NCBI GenBank assembly: GCA_019240405.1
Contig: JAFAYL010000025.1
Coordinates: 1-64,000 of the forward strand
Length of the DNA: 64,000 nucleotides
Direction: 5' to 3'
From: Acidobacteriaceae bacterium
GTDB lineage: Bacteria > Acidobacteriota > Terriglobia > Bryobacterales > Bryobacteraceae
The translations under genes and the position numbers were made by a program. The notes under the pieces were generated by a model that made no database searches, was not told the DNA's origin, and saw only the letters and a program-made list of their open reading frames with translations. Below, piece by piece: positions 51,124 to 59,176 of this stretch; the stretch's first letter is position 1; each line of letters begins with the position of its first letter.

Positions 51124-51211
51124 CCGTACAGACTACAAGCTATACTCGTGCTAACTGAACCGTCCGGGCTGTTCCGAGTCGAAGAGTTTCCGGTTGCAAA
51201 GGCATAGAAAC

Positions 51212-52681
51212 ATGGCAACCACTTTGGCAGAACGCGCGATCTCAACACCATTTTTCGATTACCGGATCGATACGGCCTATGATGAGATGTTCCGCTCACC
51301 CGATCGTCCCCGGCCGCATTACCGGGCCTTGCACGCGCACCTTCTAAAGCTGCCGGCTGAAGAGCTCCTGCGCAGCAAACAAGAAGCCGACCTCTCGTTC
51401 TTCAATCAGGGAATCACGTTTACTGTTTATGGCCGTAGCGAAGGCACGGAACGAATCTTTCCGCATGACCTTCTACCGCGTATCATCACAAGCGCGGAAT
51501 GGGAGATCATCGAACGTGGCCTCACCCAGCGCATCACCGCTCTCAACCTGTTTCTCAAAGACATCTACCACGAACGTCGAATTCTGAAGGACCGGGTGAT
51601 CCCTGGCGAAATCATTTATACCTGCAAGCATTTCCGCCGCCAAATGCGAGGCGTGAAGGTTACCAGAGACGTCTACGTCGCCGTTTGCGGAACCGATTTG
51701 ATCCGGCTACCCTCTGGCAAATTCGTCGTTCTCGAAGACAATCTGCGGGTTCCCAGCGGCGTCTCTTACATGCTCACTAGCCGCAGGGTGATGAAGCAGA
51801 TTTTTCCAGCGCTATTCCGCAAATGCGGCGTGCGGCCCATCGAGCAGTACAGCCAAGCGCTGCTGTCGACCTTGCGCTCGCTCGCGCCAGAAGGCCGTTC
51901 GAGCCCCACAATCGTCTTGTTAACCCCGGGCGTTTACAATTCTGCTTATTTTGAGCACGCGTATCTAGCTCGCCAAATGGGCATCGAACTGGTAGAGGGG
52001 CGGGACCTCGTGATTCACGATGACCTGGTCTACATGCGAACGACTTCAGGCCTCAAGCGTGTCGACGTGATTTATCGCCGTGTTGACGACGATTTCTTGG
52101 ATCCTCTTGCATTCCGTTCGGATTCCTCCTTAGGCGCAGCGGGACTGTTCAACGCATATCGCGCCGGAAATGTTGTGCTAGCGAATGCGCTCGGAACCGG
52201 CGTAGCAGATGATAAAGCGATCTATGCCTACGTTCCCGAGATCATCACGTACTACTTGGGCGAGGACCCGATTCTCGAGAACGTCGAGACATTCTTGATG
52301 GCCGACGAGACGCAGCGAGAGCACGTCTGCAACAATCTCGACAAGTACGTCGTCAAGGCGGTCGGCGAGTCCGGAGGATACGGCATGCTTATCGGCCCTC
52401 ACAGTTCGAAGGAACAGCAGGAACAATTTCGAGCCAGGATCTTAGAGGACCCGAGAAACTACATAGCGCAGCCAACGCTTGCGCTTTCCACTGCTCCATG
52501 CTTTACGGAGAACGGGGCGATCGAACCGCGCCACGTCGATCTCCGGCCGTACGTCTTGTTCGGCGAAAAAGTAACCATCGTCCCTGGCGGGCTTACCCGC
52601 GTAGCGCTGCGGAAGGGCTCTCTCGTCGTGAACTCGTCCCAAGGCGGCGGGTCGAAAGACACCTGGGTTCTCCAGAACTGA
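51212..52681 (+). CDS. Circularly permuted type-2 ATP-grasp protein
   Basis: 489 residues from the ATG at 51212 (an in-frame TTG at 51194 is also possible). It carries the circularly permuted ATP-grasp arrangement: an N-terminal catalytic part ([37 protein letters not shown]) followed by lobe segments ([36 protein letters not shown]) that in normal ATP-grasps come first. Such enzymes are predicted to form amide bonds between amino acids or onto peptides. 13 bases separate it from the alpha-E gene. The product is unknown. Confidence 0.92.
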
Positions 52682-52694
52682 GGCGGTCTAAGAG

Positions 52695-53630
52695 ATGCTC
52701 TCGCGAGTAGCTGACAGCCTCTATTGGATGAGCCGCTATTTCGAGCGCGCAGATCACTGCGCCCGGGTTTTGGAAGCAAACTACAACCTGATGTTGAATC
52801 CAACCAAGCCCTCGACCGAGCAGCGATGGAACCGCATTGCGGCATGCCTGGGACTTGGTTCCGATGCCGCCGGGCTTGATCCGCAGACCGCCATTTTGAG
52901 GCTTACCTGCGATTCGAGTAATCGCTCCTCCATCATTTCCTGCCTTGCCAGCGCGCGAGAGAACGCCAGTCAAATCCGTGAGCAGATCAGCTCCGAGATG
53001 TGGGAGCGCCTGAATCAGCTTTACCACGAAGTCAGGCAATTCAGCACCCGAACCGAAAACGATTCGGAGCCGCTGCCGCTCTTGACCGCCGTTCGCGAAG
53101 GCGCTTATAAGTTTCATGGCGTAACTGACGGAACCATCAGCCACGGAGAAGGCTGGCAATTCATTCAATTTGGGAAGTATATGGAGCGAGCATGCGCGCT
53201 CTCGATTCTTCTGGACGCCCATTTCTCGGCGTCAGCAGGCGCAGACGACCTCGATTGGGTCGGCCTGTTAGTGAGTTGCTCCGCTTTTGAGGCTTATTGT
53301 AAGGTGTACACGGCTGATTTAAAGCCTGACCACGTGGCTGAATTTCTCCTCTTCAGCCCTGAGTTTCCTTACTCCGTTCGATACTCGGCGGACCGCATGG
53401 GCACGGCGCTCGAAGCCATAAAGCAGACTTCTGCCGTTCGAAAAACTAGCCGGATCGAGCGACTTATAGGCATGCTGCGCTCCTCGCTCTCTTACGTTCA
53501 AATTGATGAGATCATCGCGCGGGATTTGCATCGATACCTTAACAGTGTGATCGAGCAGTGCCGAAGGCTCCATGCCGCAGTACATGAGCTGTACATCGGC
53601 TATCCAATCGAGGCTGCGCTGGGGGCCTGA
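52695..53630 (+). CDS. Alpha-E domain protein
   Basis: 311 residues, all-helical. The start MLSRVADSLYWMSRYFERADHCARVLEAN and the internal GYIERACALSILLDAHF-like KYMERACALSILLDAHF mark the alpha-E domain, found almost always beside circularly permuted ATP-grasp genes. It contains conserved glutamates and arginines but no known catalytic fold; it is presumed to be a partner of the ligase. Its stop overlaps the next ATG by one base (TGATG). Confidence 0.92.
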   Translation: MLSRVADSLYWMSRYFERADHCARVLEANYNLMLNPTKPSTEQRWNRIAACLGLGSDAAGLDPQTAILRLTCDSSNRSSIISCLASARENASQIREQISSEMWERLNQLYHEVRQFSTRTENDSEPLPLLTAVREGAYKFHGVTDGTISHGEGWQFIQFGKYMERACALSILLDAHFSASAGADDLDWVGLLVSCSAFEAYCKVYTADLKPDHVAEFLLFSPEFPYSVRYSADRMGTALEAIKQTSAVRKTSRIERLIGMLRSSLSYVQIDEIIARDLHRYLNSVIEQCRRLHAAVHELYIGYPIEAALGA

Positions 53631-54592
53631 TGTTTTACGCAATCCGGCATTTTACGCGTTATCGATACAGCCGCCCCATTTGGCAGAGCATGATGGAGGT
53701 GCGCATGCATCCGCGGAGCGAGCACATGCAGCGTTGTTTTACGTTTCAGCTCTCGGTAAGCCCGCGCGCCCGAATCTTCTCTTATGCGGACCACCTGGGG
53801 AACTTGGTCCATCACTTTGATATTCCGGAGCAGCACAACCAGCTCACCATCGTCGCCGACGCGCTCGTCGACGTGGACGCTCCCGAGCCCCTGCCAACAG
53901 CGCTGGGCTCAGAAGCATGGAGCGAGATCGATGACATCATCGATCGAGAGGACTACTGGGACATGCTTATGCCCAGCCATTTCGCCCGGACATCGCCGGA
54001 GCTGGAAGCTTTGGCTGCCGAGTTTGGCGTTGATAAACGCAATGGGCATGATCCCTTGCAACTGCTCATGACGGTGAACTCGCGTCTCTATGAGGGCTTC
54101 TCTTACGTCAAAAAGAGCACTTCGGTCGACTCGCCCATCGAAGATGCCCTTCGATCCCGGCAAGGCGTTTGCCAGGATTTCGCGCACATTATGATTGCCT
54201 TGGTGCGCAACTTGCGAATCCCGTGCCGGTATGTGAGCGGCTATCTCCATCACGATGCGTCACACATCGATCGCTCTGCCGAAGGCGCCACACACGCCTG
54301 GGTGGAGGCGCTGCTGCCGGGCTTGGGATGGATGGGGTTCGATCCGACCAACAATCTGATTGCGGGCGGACGCCATATTCGAACCGCAATCGGCCGGGAT
54401 TACGCAGACGTGCCCCCAACAGTGGGCACGATGAAAGGCTCGGCTGACACTGAGCTGCAAGTGCGCGTCAGAGTAACGCCATCGGAGGCGGTACTGCCAC
54501 CCGATCAGGAGTTCGCCGCGGATGAAGAATGGTCCCGCTTTCTCGAAACAAATCAGGAAGCTGAAGTACAGCAGGGGCAGCAACAGCAATAG
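53630..54592 (+). CDS. Transglutaminase-like peptidase with intact triad
   Basis: 320 residues. N-terminal beta domain (MFYAIRHFTRYRYSRPIWQSMMEVRMHPRS) then the papain-like core: Cys181 in GVCQDFAHIMIALVR, His222 in THAWVEALLPG and Asp238 in GFDPTNN, a complete triad. The C-terminus has a glutamine-rich tail. In clusters with ATP-grasp and alpha-E it is predicted to release or process the peptide made by the ligase. Start overlaps the alpha-E stop. Confidence 0.92.
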   Translation: MFYAIRHFTRYRYSRPIWQSMMEVRMHPRSEHMQRCFTFQLSVSPRARIFSYADHLGNLVHHFDIPEQHNQLTIVADALVDVDAPEPLPTALGSEAWSEIDDIIDREDYWDMLMPSHFARTSPELEALAAEFGVDKRNGHDPLQLLMTVNSRLYEGFSYVKKSTSVDSPIEDALRSRQGVCQDFAHIMIALVRNLRIPCRYVSGYLHHDASHIDRSAEGATHAWVEALLPGLGWMGFDPTNNLIAGGRHIRTAIGRDYADVPPTVGTMKGSADTELQVRVRVTPSEAVLPPDQEFAADEEWSRFLETNQEAEVQQGQQQQ

Positions 54593-54684: not shown

Positions 54685-55626
54685 TCAGCGGATTGAAACG
54701 GCTGGTTCTCCATCAGAAATTTTCAACGCGGATTTCTCCACGGGTCCAACAAAACCGAACCGTCGCGTGAGTTCGAAGATACCGGGAACGGCCCATTGTT
54801 TCAATTCGGGGGACAACACTAGGCGCTCGATCATGATTTCCAAATCTACCGAGATATTCACTCCGCATTCGACGTTTGGTCTAACGCACAAGGCCCGAAG
54901 CTCTCTCTCATGCTGGAACCCGTTTGCGTGCTTTATAAAGAGTGAGCCCCAAAACGCCTCGCCAGTGTATTTTTCTTTCTCTTCAGGGGGGAAATACTTA
55001 ACGGGGCTGATCGTGAGGGGTATTTGGCATTCCCGAAAGCACGAGGCTAGCCGCTGCACTGTAGACTGAATCGCGATACCGTTGCTGGGCGCGTAATCCC
55101 GCCACATCTTCAAACAATCCGCCGGGCCCATGTACCAGCAGCTAATACACGCATCATCCCTCCTCTGGCGAACCATGCAGCTCATCATTGTTTCAGCATC
55201 TATGCAGCCATGTCCGTCGAGGACGTTCTTCGGCAACTGCTTCTTTGTCTCCTCCCAGGCTCGGAGAGGCAACTGCCCTTCAGTAATGTCACTCATTGTG
55301 GATAATGGCGAAAAGTGAATTGCGCGTTTCCACAATATGGCGACTAACTGTTCGAGCGGTACATAACGCCAAATGACATCCTCTGGATTTGCATTAAAAA
55401 CACTCACAGTCTCGTGAGCGCCAAATTTCAAAATCGGTGATTCATCTGTGTCTTCTTCACCTGGAACGCGCATATCGATTATTCGAAGGATCTGTTGGCG
55501 ATTTAGTACTTGCTCACTTTCGTGCAGTTCGACGAGCGAGCTCACAAATTTCTTATCAGCGTCGCTGAGTTGACTCAGATTACTTTTCAGGTGGTAGAGC
55601 CTTTTTACCACATCAATACGTGCCAT
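54685..55626 (-). CDS. DUF2971-like protein
   Basis: 313 residues. The middle resembles DUF2971: WRYVPLEQLVAILWKRAIHFSPLSTMSD, ACISCWYMGPADCLKMWRDYAPSNGIAIQST and the later GFQHERELRALC. No signal or membrane segment, so cytosolic. Function unknown. The gene stands alone between the Anbu cluster and the cimA leader, with somewhat lower GC than its neighbours, which may mean acquisition by transfer. It is not linked to a visible partner. Confidence 0.7.
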   Translation of the reverse strand: MARIDVVKRLYHLKSNLSQLSDADKKFVSSLVELHESEQVLNRQQILRIIDMRVPGEEDTDESPILKFGAHETVSVFNANPEDVIWRYVPLEQLVAILWKRAIHFSPLSTMSDITEGQLPLRAWEETKKQLPKNVLDGHGCIDAETMMSCMVRQRRDDACISCWYMGPADCLKMWRDYAPSNGIAIQSTVQRLASCFRECQIPLTISPVKYFPPEEKEKYTGEAFWGSLFIKHANGFQHERELRALCVRPNVECGVNISVDLEIMIERLVLSPELKQWAVPGIFELTRRFGFVGPVEKSALKISDGEPAVSIR

Positions 55627-55803: not shown

Positions 55804-55832
55804 TTGCATTCCCCAAACGTGTATCCGATAAT
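55804..55832 (+). promoter_or_regulatory. Putative cimA promoter
   Basis: TTGCAT (55804-55809), a 17-base spacer, GATAAT (55827-55832). The start point would be near 55839, ahead of the leader peptide. An 8-bp inverted repeat TTTGCATT / AATGCAAA (55803-55810 and 55830-55837) spans both boxes and could be an operator. Confidence 0.55.
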
Positions 55833-55865
55833 GCAAAATAGTCAGTAGAACTGACGCTTATCCAC

Positions 55866-55913
55866 ATGAAGGGCGGCATTCTTATTACATTGGCGATTCG
55901 AGGGCCGGCCTGA
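55866..55913 (+). CDS. Leader peptide of the cimA attenuator (Ile/Leu-rich)
   Basis: A 15-codon frame, MKGGILITLAIRGPA, with three ATT (Ile) codons, two Leu codons and one Thr, ending TGA at 55911-55913. A terminator hairpin begins 26 bases after the stop, then cimA, the first enzyme of the pyruvate route to isoleucine. This is the classical layout of ribosome-mediated attenuation: when Ile-tRNA is scarce the ribosome would stall on the ATT codons. The segment GGCCT at 55907-55911, overlapping the stop, can pair with AGGCC at 55940-55944, the left arm of the terminator, as an antiterminator of only about 5 bp. No clear ribosome site precedes the ATG, which is the weak point. Confidence 0.65.
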   Translation: MKGGILITLAIRGPA

Positions 55914-55938
55914 GATCTCGTCGACCAAGCGAGTTTTC

Positions 55939-55969
55939 AAGGCCACCAGGCGGAAGCCGGTGGCCTTTT
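55939..55969 (+). terminator. Attenuator terminator upstream of cimA
   Basis: AAGGCCACC (55939-55947), an 11-nt loop and GGTGGCCTT (55959-55967) followed by TT: a 9-bp GC-rich stem with a U tract, 55 bases before the cimA start and behind the leader peptide. Confidence 0.85.
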
Positions 55970-56024
55970 GCATTTACGTCCGTGACCGGATGTTTCGACA
56001 AGGATTGACAAAGCTGATCACATT

Positions 56025-57656
56025 ATGAAGATCTCTATCTTAGATACAACTCTTCGCGACGGCACTCAAGGCGAGTCCATTTCCTTCTCTCTCGACGACA
56101 AGTTGATGATCGCGGAGAAGCTCGATGAGCTCGGCATCGATTACATCGAGGGAGGATGGCCCGGATCCAATCCAAAGGACAAGGAATTTTTCGCGCAGGC
56201 CAGGAATCTGAAACTGAAACACGCCAAGCTCGCTGCATTCGGCGCAACCCGGTTTGCAAAGAACTCCGTTGAAACGGACCCGAACGTTGCCGAATTGCTT
56301 GCCAGCGAAACTCCCGTCGTCTCGATTTTTGGAAAGACATGGAATCTTCACGTCCAGCGCGTATTGGGCATCACCGAGGACGAAAATCTGCGCTTGATTT
56401 CTGAAACCGTCTCTTACCTGAAGCGGCAAGGGCGAGAGGTCATCTATGATGCCGAGCATTTCTTCGATGGCTACGAGGCGGATGCCGCTTTCGCGCTCCG
56501 AACGCTCGAAGCTGCAAAGAACGCTGGGGCAGACGTGCTGTGCCTATGCGATACCAACGGCGGAACATTGCCCATGCGGTTGGTCGAGATTGTCGCCGAG
56601 GTTCGCAAGCGCTTCGACGGAGTGCTCGGCATCCATTGCCATAACGATTCAGAGGTTGCGGTGGCCAACACTGTGCTGGCCGTCGACGCCGGCGTCACTC
56701 ATGTTCAGGGGTGCATGAACGGGTACGGCGAACGGTGCGGGAACGCAAATCTCTGCTCCATTCTGCCCAATCTCGAATTGAAGCTTGGCCATACAACCGT
56801 GGGTCTGGAGAATCTGCAAAAACTGACTCAAATAGCGCGGTCCATAGCTGATTTGGCCAACATGCCGCCGCGCCGCGACCAGCCATTCGTCGGCGCCAGC
56901 GCTTTCGCGCATAAAGGCGGCGTACACGTGAGCGCTGTTTTGAAGTACTCTGGCACGTACGAACACATTAACCCGGAGACGGTCGGCAACCGCCAGCGCG
57001 TCTTGTTAAGCGATCTTTCGGGGCGCGGCAATATCGATTACAAACTGAAACAGCACGGGCTTGGAGAGCACCTCAGTGACACCGCCCGCCGCGAATTGCT
57101 GCAGCGCATGAAGCTGATGGAATACGAAGGCTATGATTTCGAAACAGCCGAGGGTACGTTTGAATTGCTCGTGCGCCAAGCCGTGCACCCTGATTTTCAT
57201 CCGTTCGACATAGTAAGCTACGAGGTTTCCACGAAACTTCAAAGCAGCGCTGCGAAGCTAACCGGGAGCGACGAAACCGTAACCACCGCAAGTGTCGTTT
57301 TACGCGTCGGCGATGATGTGCATTCGGCTACCGCGACCGGCCATGGCCCCGTGAACGCGCTTGACAAATGCCTGCGGCGTTGTCTCGCATCCATCTATCC
57401 CGCCATCGCCAACGTGCGCCTTACCGACTATAAGGTGCGCGTCCTCGATGGACGCCGCGGTACCGAATCAAAGGTTCGCGTCCTTGTCGAATGGACCGAT
57501 CATCGGCGAAGTTGGACAACCGTTGGAATCTCCGACAATGTCATCGACGCGAGCTGGAAGGCGCTTGTCGACGCTCTCCGTTTGGAGCTGATTCGTCTAC
57601 TCGAGAAAGATGAACAAGCTGAGTCGATGATCCGCGATTTCAGTTGGGGTGTGTAG
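56025..57656 (+). CDS. cimA: Citramalate synthase
   Basis: 543 residues, in the usual range for the long CimA type. Condenses pyruvate and acetyl-CoA to (R)-citramalate, the entry to isoleucine without threonine deaminase. Metal/substrate motifs DTTLRDGTQGE (residues 7-17), GIHCHNDSEVAVANT and the NGYGERCGNANL signature are intact; the LeuA dimer/allosteric domain spans ~405-530. The absence of the ATP-dependent fold excludes other families; homocitrate synthase is less likely because of the isoleucine-type leader. Followed by lysC after 41 bases. Confidence 0.93.
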   Translation: MKISILDTTLRDGTQGESISFSLDDKLMIAEKLDELGIDYIEGGWPGSNPKDKEFFAQARNLKLKHAKLAAFGATRFAKNSVETDPNVAELLASETPVVSIFGKTWNLHVQRVLGITEDENLRLISETVSYLKRQGREVIYDAEHFFDGYEADAAFALRTLEAAKNAGADVLCLCDTNGGTLPMRLVEIVAEVRKRFDGVLGIHCHNDSEVAVANTVLAVDAGVTHVQGCMNGYGERCGNANLCSILPNLELKLGHTTVGLENLQKLTQIARSIADLANMPPRRDQPFVGASAFAHKGGVHVSAVLKYSGTYEHINPETVGNRQRVLLSDLSGRGNIDYKLKQHGLGEHLSDTARRELLQRMKLMEYEGYDFETAEGTFELLVRQAVHPDFHPFDIVSYEVSTKLQSSAAKLTGSDETVTTASVVLRVGDDVHSATATGHGPVNALDKCLRRCLASIYPAIANVRLTDYKVRVLDGRRGTESKVRVLVEWTDHRRSWTTVGISDNVIDASWKALVDALRLELIRLLEKDEQAESMIRDFSWGV

Positions 57657-57697: not shown

Positions 57698-59176
57698 TTG
57701 AAGTCCCTACTCGTGATGAAATTCGGCGGGACCAGTATGGGAAGCGCCGACCGGATTCGCGCCGCGGCCGCAATTATCGCGAAAGAACAGAAGAAACGCG
57801 CTCTGATCATCGTTGTTTCTGCGATGTCTGAGATAACGGATCTGTTGTTCGAAACACTGCGCCGAGCCGAAGTGGGCGATCGAGCGGCTGTGGATTCGAG
57901 TCTCCATAATCTTCTTACCCGCCATCGCGAGGCCTCTGATGATCTATTCAGGCGAACCGAGAGTGCATCTAAATTTCGCGACGCCGCCTATCAGGCGGTC
58001 GAGGCGCTAGTATGCGAATGCCATCGGATTGCGAACGGAATTCTCATGTTGGGCGAGCGCCCGCCCCGCTCGGTCGATGAGGCGCTTGCCATAGGTGAAC
58101 GGCTCTCGTCGGCGCTTTTGGCTCACTATCTTGATTCCATCGGAGTCGACTCTTGCGCCGTGAATGGAAGTGACCTCATTGTTACGGACGCTGTATTCGG
58201 CAACGCCTCCCCACAAATGGAGCCAACACGAAAAAGATGTCTCGAGCGCCTGGTTCCGCTGGTCGCAAAAGGCACAGTGCCCGTCATTACTGGGTTTAAC
58301 GGTGCAACGGTCGACGGATACCTGACCACTCTCGGGCGCGGCGGATCGGATTTCTCGGCCTCAATTCTCGCGGCAGCAATGGATGCCGAGGAGCTCTGGA
58401 TCTGGACCGACGTTGATGGAATCATGACCGCCGACCCGCGCCTGGTCGATGATGTTGCCGTTCTCGATCAAGTCAGCTATGCCGAAGCCGCGGAGCTCGC
58501 CTATAACGGCGCAAAGATTCTTCATCCGCGCACTTTGGCCCCCCTCGTTCAGAAGCACATTCCGGTGTGGAGCAAGAACAGCTTCGCGCCTGAGAAACCC
58601 GGCACCAAAATCGTTTCGCATTTCGATGAACCCCGCGGCGCCCGAGCTGTCACGTCCATGTCAAACATCGCGCTCATCTCGATGGAGCCTGCCAATGCCG
58701 TTTTGGGCGGCACAAGATTGATGGCTCGCGCTCTGGATGCGCTCGCTCTCGCCAATGTTGAGATCCTCGTGTTCACCAGCTCGAGCTATCGCCAGACCTT
58801 TTGTCTGCTGATCCGGAAACACGACGTTCCTACCGCGCTTGAAGCTCTCGAAGCGAATCTTTCACTCGAGCTGGCGCACGGTTATTTGAAGCCTATCGAT
58901 GTGGATGAGAATGTCGGTTTGCTTGCCGTAGTTGGCGAAGGAATGCGCGGCACGCCGGGCTTGGCCGGGCGTGTGTTCACAGCAATTTCTCGCGAAAACA
59001 TAAACATTATTGCCATCGCTCAGGGCTCGAGTGAGCTAACCATCGGAATTGTTGTGCGGCGCGATGGGCTCGAGCGCGCGGTCCGCGCCGTTCATGCAGA
59101 ATGCCAGTTGGGAAAGACCGCACACCGCATGGAGCCAGAGGAGATCACGGCACATCAGCATCCTGGTGCGCGCTAA
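57698..59176 (+). CDS. lysC: Aspartate kinase
   Basis: 492 residues. Phosphorylates aspartate, first step to lysine, threonine and methionine. The motif VMKFGGTSMGSADRI is at residues ~6-20; the kinase core is LGRGGSDFSASILAAAMDAEELWIWTDVDGIMTADPRLV, and two ACT domains for feedback control lie near 320-480 (ISMEPANAVLGG, VGEGMRGTPGLAGRVFTAISREN). The length and layout match the ThrA/LysC monofunctional type; no homoserine dehydrogenase domain is attached. A TTG at 57698 preceded by AAGGAG is the start. The last 32 bases overlap thrB tail to tail. Confidence 0.95.
   Translation: MKSLLVMKFGGTSMGSADRIRAAAAIIAKEQKKRALIIVVSAMSEITDLLFETLRRAEVGDRAAVDSSLHNLLTRHREASDDLFRRTESASKFRDAAYQAVEALVCECHRIANGILMLGERPPRSVDEALAIGERLSSALLAHYLDSIGVDSCAVNGSDLIVTDAVFGNASPQMEPTRKRCLERLVPLVAKGTVPVITGFNGATVDGYLTTLGRGGSDFSASILAAAMDAEELWIWTDVDGIMTADPRLVDDVAVLDQVSYAEAAELAYNGAKILHPRTLAPLVQKHIPVWSKNSFAPEKPGTKIVSHFDEPRGARAVTSMSNIALISMEPANAVLGGTRLMARALDALALANVEILVFTSSSYRQTFCLLIRKHDVPTALEALEANLSLELAHGYLKPIDVDENVGLLAVVGEGMRGTPGLAGRVFTAISRENINIIAIAQGSSELTIGIVVRRDGLERAVRAVHAECQLGKTAHRMEPEEITAHQHPGAR

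Follow-up and report, generated by a model that had tools for sequence, protein, structure and literature searches.

The citramalate synthase gene (cimA) in the window, by which we mean the whole 64,000-nucleotide stretch of acidobacterial DNA analysed here, is preceded by a short leader frame and a terminator, and the conservation of this arrangement in relatives settled that it is real. It is very probably a ribosome-mediated transcription attenuator with charged tRNA-Ile as its signal. Leaders of the same kind in other genomes further indicate that it probably arose when one attenuator with Ile and Val codons became two after a single operon split, an Ile-dependent one for CimA and a Val/Leu-dependent one for IlvBNC, chiefly through codon replacements and with the terminator/antiterminator plan kept; the lineage of the window would then have rebuilt its cimA copy (new start, new register), which now stands over an aspartate kinase as well, and its ilvBNC copy would have lost the peptide. 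The elements of the locus are the following:

55804 to 55832, plus strand: promoter candidate TTGCAT-N17-GATAAT (TTGCAT at 55804-55809, GATAAT at 55827-55832), read from the sequence.
55854 to 55865, plus strand: codons ACG CTT ATC CAC, which correspond by homology to the first codons of the leader peptide in relatives (19-codon register, alignment A1).
55866 to 55913, plus strand: leader frame MKGGILITLAIRGPA followed by a stop codon, with Ile codons at 55878, 55884 and 55896; conserved in 17 leaders.
55907 to 55944, plus strand: antiterminator as formed by the window copy, 55907-55915 with 55935-55944 and an inner helix of 55917-55921 with 55929-55933, predicted by folding.
55939 to 55967, plus strand: intrinsic terminator, 9-bp stem (55939-55947/55959-55967) with an inner 3-bp GGC-GGAA-GCC hairpin, -22.1 kcal/mol, predicted by folding and by covariation of homologues.
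55968 to 55975, plus strand: tail TTGCATTT 3' of the terminator, with a short U tract (two U past the stem, then GCAUUU).
56025 to 57656, plus strand: cimA, citramalate synthase, the regulated gene (TIGR00977, 691 bits, cut-off 450).
57698 to 59176, plus strand: aspartate kinase, 41 nt 3' of cimA (TIGR00657 above cut-off).

An earlier note, made from the letters alone, had described a promoter, a 15-codon frame with three Ile codons, a 9-bp terminator stem with a U tract and, directly downstream, cimA. The frame, the stem (its U tract being short) and the gene, with its start at 56025, were all found. The promoter is also present where it had been placed, but taken alone it is not above chance, with 3 promoter-like sites in 4 kb against 2.4 expected. 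A hexamer agreeing with TATAAT in at least 5/6 positions nevertheless precedes the start register by 13-24 nt in 14 of 16 leaders, that of the window included (L090 and L091 are the two without it). The fold of 55867-55975 had a z-score of -3.58, with 1 of 200 shuffles as good, and that of the longer segment 55839-55990 a z-score of -2.77, with 2 of 200 as good. The stem at 55939-55967 was absent from the list of a simple terminator scan because its loop exceeds the limit of that scan. The nearest long frame upstream of the leader lies at 54685-55626 on the minus strand, so that the hairpin does not end the upstream gene, and we rejected this candidate role. This divergent frame of 313 amino acids matched nothing in NCBIfam or Pfam at E 0.001; beyond it, at 51194-54592 on the plus strand, lie clustered genes for circularly permuted ATP-grasp, Alpha-E and transglutaminase-like proteins.

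We searched for cimA in 100 genomes, including that of the window. Its genus comprises 17 genomes, two of which lack the 5' end of cimA together with upstream DNA; a homologous leader was found in all 15 that have DNA ahead of the gene (15/17 by model search), as well as in G024 and G144 from two other genera, which brings the cimA leaders to 17. G210 gave a strong model match, its neighbouring gene being unread. The consensus comprises a leader peptide MLxLIQGGILISVAIxGPA ending at the stop codon, an antiterminator that is formed by its last codons and a GGCCAYCGG terminator. Conservation of the short frame and of its Ile codons, a test fixed beforehand, bore out the earlier proposal: counted from the stop, codon -9 is Ile in 17/17 cimA leaders (ATT in 16, ATC in one), codon -5 is ATT in every one of the 17, and codon -11 is Ile in 14. 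The 19-codon register opens with ATG in 13 of 16 leaders, and in two others (L091, L140) the ATG is at most one codon off. When the 330 nt 5' of cimA were screened coarsely, a terminator was detected in 15/16 leaders, each with at least three Ile codons in frame; applied to 80 cimA loci from genome contigs, the same screen yielded 13 terminator-like hairpins, none accompanied by such a frame.

The alternative helices were examined across a larger collection of leaders. Averaged over 98 distinct leaders, the seven bases that end the coding frame form 6.27 of 7 Watson-Crick pairs with the left arm and loop of the terminator, compared with 5.82 after permutation, a value reached by none of 2000 permutations; by class, A alone was equalled in 20 of 2000 permutations, B in 23 and C in 0. 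This set includes L228, L232 and L254, the first and last of which are also in the 75-row alignment used below. Most relatives pair CCCCGCC with GGCGGGG or use a matched variant, such as GCT/AGC, GTC/GAC, CTGCC/GGCAG or GCCCGCC/GGCGGGC. In the 75-row alignment, 93.0% of the antiterminator cells were paired, with 17 double changes, and 95.9% of those of the terminator, with 66 double changes; none of 500 shuffles reached either value for either helix, and their covariation scores were also above all 500 shuffles. Slid versions scored far lower and, for the antiterminator, had at most 66% of cells paired. Counted by pairs that show double changes, 10 of 500 shuffles equalled the antiterminator and 53 of 500 the terminator. 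In the 16-row alignment of cimA leaders, 90.9% of the antiterminator was paired (11/500 shuffles), with one pair showing double changes, a count that 362 of 500 shuffles reach.

Predicted folds were compared at two stages of transcription. With a ribosome stalled at codon -9 and the right arm of the terminator not yet made, at least 4 pairs between the leader end and the left arm or loop were predicted in 100 of 102 leaders (all save L094 and L205). Once all RNA was out behind the stalled ribosome, the terminator was in the minimum-energy fold of 82/102 leaders, among them 16/17 cimA leaders, every one save that of the window; in these leaders, antitermination would therefore rely on the order of transcription. 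A third helix, in which the 5'-UTR pairs with the segment after the stop codon and would act as a protector, was favoured in the 17 cimA leaders (mean -10.31 kcal/mol versus -9.07 when permuted, 9 of 3000 as low); in 9 ilvBNC leaders it received no support, 1987 of 3000 permutations being as low. In cimA leaders, this pairing could allow termination again in the absence of leader translation.

In the window, as in an attenuator, the codons match the product of the pathway (3 Ile among 15 codons), the terminator lies between the leader frame and the first gene, and an exclusive antiterminator overlaps the 3' end of the leader, in the relatives as well as, in another register, here. The short pairing GGCCT:AGGCC that had been put forward as antiterminator proved to be part of a longer helix, namely its outer 5 bp; this helix and the terminator are mutually exclusive. 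According to the mechanism that we propose, RNA polymerase would start near 55839 and a ribosome would follow on the short frame. With ample Ile-tRNA, the ribosome would reach the stop codon and cover the 5' half of the antiterminator, so that the terminator at 55939-55967 would form and transcription would end before cimA. When Ile-tRNA is scarce, it would stall at the Ile codon at 55878 or 55884, and the stop-codon segment would be free to pair with the left arm of the terminator, allowing read-through into cimA and perhaps the aspartate kinase. The geometry agrees with this scheme: the distance to the stop is 33 nt from codon -11 and 27 nt from codon -9, the antiterminator of the relatives begins 7-9 nt ahead of the stop, and a ribosome footprint reaches about 13 nt ahead; a stall at either codon should therefore leave the antiterminator free, and a ribosome at the stop should cover it. 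Codon -5, the most conserved of all, is too near the stop to be a stall site under the attenuation model. We infer transcription, translation of the frame, stalling and the response to Ile from the sequences compared. The reading of the locus as an attenuator controlled by charged tRNA-Ile, already made in the earlier note, is thus supported by conservation and was refined in the start codon, the register of the antiterminator and the ancestry of the leader.

The copy in the window has several peculiarities. Its model score of 87.7 bits is the lowest of 18 strong matches, the 17 others ranging from 101 to 145. Four codons upstream of 55866, where the leader of the relatives starts with ATG, the window alone has ACG; an in-frame ATG follows four codons past this ancestral start, with no Shine-Dalgarno-like stretch seen by eye before it. 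The leader peptide of the Corynebacterium glutamicum ilvBNC operon is reportedly, to go by the title of the study, produced in the absence of a ribosome binding site, a case relevant to the lack of a Shine-Dalgarno sequence here. The family register of the antiterminator keeps 4 of 7 pairs, another register being used instead, and the protector pairing of the 5'-UTR is weak (-5.2). In addition, the ilvBNC operon elsewhere in the genome of the window has lost its leader peptide and been left with a terminator-like stem. These traits would all fit a decaying relic, in which the Ile attenuator of the relatives works and that of the window has become a constitutive partial terminator. We regard this as unlikely, since an in-frame ATG is at hand close to the lost start, all three Ile codons have been kept while neighbouring codons changed, and a -10-like hexamer occurs at the same spacing as in the relatives. 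Moreover, the new antiterminator is predicted at -24.1 kcal/mol, with a stall at the second Ile codon and the right arm not made, against -22.1 for the terminator, and it stays in the minimum-energy fold with all RNA out. If, as we favour, the window copy is a working attenuator, its reach may extend to the aspartate kinase, possibly on the same transcript, because this gene follows cimA so closely. Such a kinase stands behind cimA in 1 of 39 loci with enough sequence, that of the window only. Past the aspartate kinase, the other strand carries genes for homoserine kinase and threonine synthase.

Control without ribosome stalling, by a T-box, a riboswitch or Rho, has a precedent of sorts in the ilvB leader of Streptomyces coelicolor, in which, according to the accessible part of the report, changing candidate regulatory codons had no effect (PMC1262725). 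For the cimA leader we consider it very improbable. At gathering thresholds, the only hit of the Rfam 15 models in the window was a tRNA away from cimA, and they matched nothing in ten loci of relatives at E up to 1, so that a T-box or another RNA family of that release was rejected as a candidate; furthermore, codon content tracks the downstream genes, for which a ligand-binding RNA would have no need. That a short frame happens to precede a hairpin ending another transcript can practically be dismissed: promoter-like sites of this score are indeed equally common in shuffles, but the arrangement is conserved in 15/15 relatives with DNA there, its helices covary and the upstream gene is on the other strand.

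Attenuation by charged tRNA-Ile, which thus remains the preferred reading, is of the classical trp/ilv kind, and the leaders of ilvGMEDA and ilvBN in Escherichia coli are ribosome-mediated attenuators. We liken the acidobacterial leaders to these by plan, not by sequence: both consist of a short peptide rich in branched-chain amino acids followed by alternative antiterminator and terminator, and in both cases two leaders with different controlling codons occur in one genome. Unlike here, the E. coli leaders occur without cimA, and here both leaders apparently derive from one mixed leader by a split. Among published motifs, ilvB-II of Corynebacterium, ilvB-OMG and the Leptospira ilvB motif also place an upstream frame rich in branched-chain amino acid codons before ilvB, and attenuation has been proposed for them (PMC10272879). 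In contrast to these motifs, as far as the accessible part of that work describes them, the present leaders also precede cimA and have a GGCCAYCGGCGGGG terminator; the lack of Rfam 15 matches in the ten loci separates the two only if Rfam includes those motifs. Actinobacterial ilv operons likewise have candidate leaders with runs of Ile, Val and Leu codons and terminators (PMC1262725), their mode of regulation being left open in the part of the study available to us; the antiterminator described here is backed by covariation. Our literature search, with most subscription journals outside its reach, brought up no description of a leader of cimA or of acidobacterial ilv genes. The mechanism being classical, what deserves interest is that one leader probably became two with different specificities: a widespread leader with a clear proposed signal offers a natural experiment in which the amino-acid specificity of an attenuator changes as an operon breaks up. 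The leader also turns citramalate synthase, which opens the threonine-independent route to isoleucine, into a directly testable target of tRNA-Ile attenuation.

The leader was also sought beyond cimA. A first covariance model, built from 16 cimA leaders, matched 143 of 237 family genomes and 61 of 76 genera with E no higher than 0.01, a few of these matches being bare terminators. For 77 of the 80 leader matches that were fetched, the next gene, 18-152 nt behind, was ilvB. In 15 of 20 longer loci, cimA followed 3.4-3.6 kb 3' of the leader, after ilvB, ilvN and ilvC (all four genes confirmed by NCBIfam in L178, and by similarity or by eye in the other loci). Conversely, in 49/67 cimA loci the gene immediately upstream is ilvC; the remaining 18 are 16 loci with the leader, L092, and L125 (genome G067, from the order, no ilvC within 1000 nt). 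A second model, built from 75 leaders and run on 399 genomes of the class, matched 111, including seven of the outgroup family f3, and in the two f3 genomes that were read (G063 and G073) the leader is followed by ilvB, ilvN, ilvC and cimA. We also found ilvB-like genes behind the matches in G362, G379 and G373, from other families.

In the clade of the window, by contrast with these operons, cimA stands alone, apart from ilvBNC, and the codons of the leaders differ with the genes that follow. Within the last 16 codons, the 17 leaders of cimA alone have on average 4.0 Ile, 0.8 Val and 2.1 Leu, the 12 leaders of ilvBNC alone 0.4 Ile, 5.0 Val and 2.7 Leu, and the 74 leaders of ilvBNC-cimA operons 3.5 Ile, 4.4 Val and 0.9 Leu. 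The 74 are what was left of 77 operon leaders after removal of L232, whose frame was misread, and of L228 (at a contig end) and L254 (before another gene), behind which no ilvB was found. Ile exceeds Val in all 17 cimA-alone leaders and Val exceeds Ile in all 12 ilvBNC-alone leaders; the operon leaders are mixed (Ile ahead in 26/74, Val in 35/74). The ilvBNC operon has a leader of its own in 9 of 12 ilvB loci of the same genus with the gene start and in 3/3 of the other two genera; the three without a leader peptide are those of G002, G007 and the genome of the window (G000), in which ilvN and ilvC follow ilvB behind the leftover stem (L316/L207, contig C35).

In a cimA tree of 47 rows, three of them less than half filled, the 15 rows labelled as alone form one group (99/93), 14 of these labels resting on evidence and that of L092 (G015), whose upstream DNA is missing, on kinship; the operon rows L093-L110 have ilvC upstream. 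Since the operon is present in the outgroup and in the other rows of the family, the simplest reading of these sequences is that it apparently split once, in the clade of the window. The mixed Ile and Val leader would then be the ancestral form, and the likeness of the leaders suggests that the one ahead of cimA derives from, or shares an ancestor with, the Ile/Val leader of ilvBNC-cimA that occurs in much of this family.

Some matches of the leader models lay outside this pattern. L305-L308, L313 and L314 looked by eye like bare terminators or chance matches and were set aside. L309 (G362) and L310 (G379) are strong leader matches before ilvB-like genes (E 1.6e-22 and 3.9e-18), whose presence in other families may reflect deep conservation, transfer or bin contamination. 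Finally, with no ilvB seen directly behind, two Ile leaders of the same type, L303 in G024 (MSLNRIVIQNAAIIIAAPV and stop) and L304 in G018 (ending in NNIAIPVITIRGPA and stop), precede single genes similar to the small subunit of acetolactate synthase, the first of which matched TIGR00119 above cut-off and the second ACT_AHAS_ss only.
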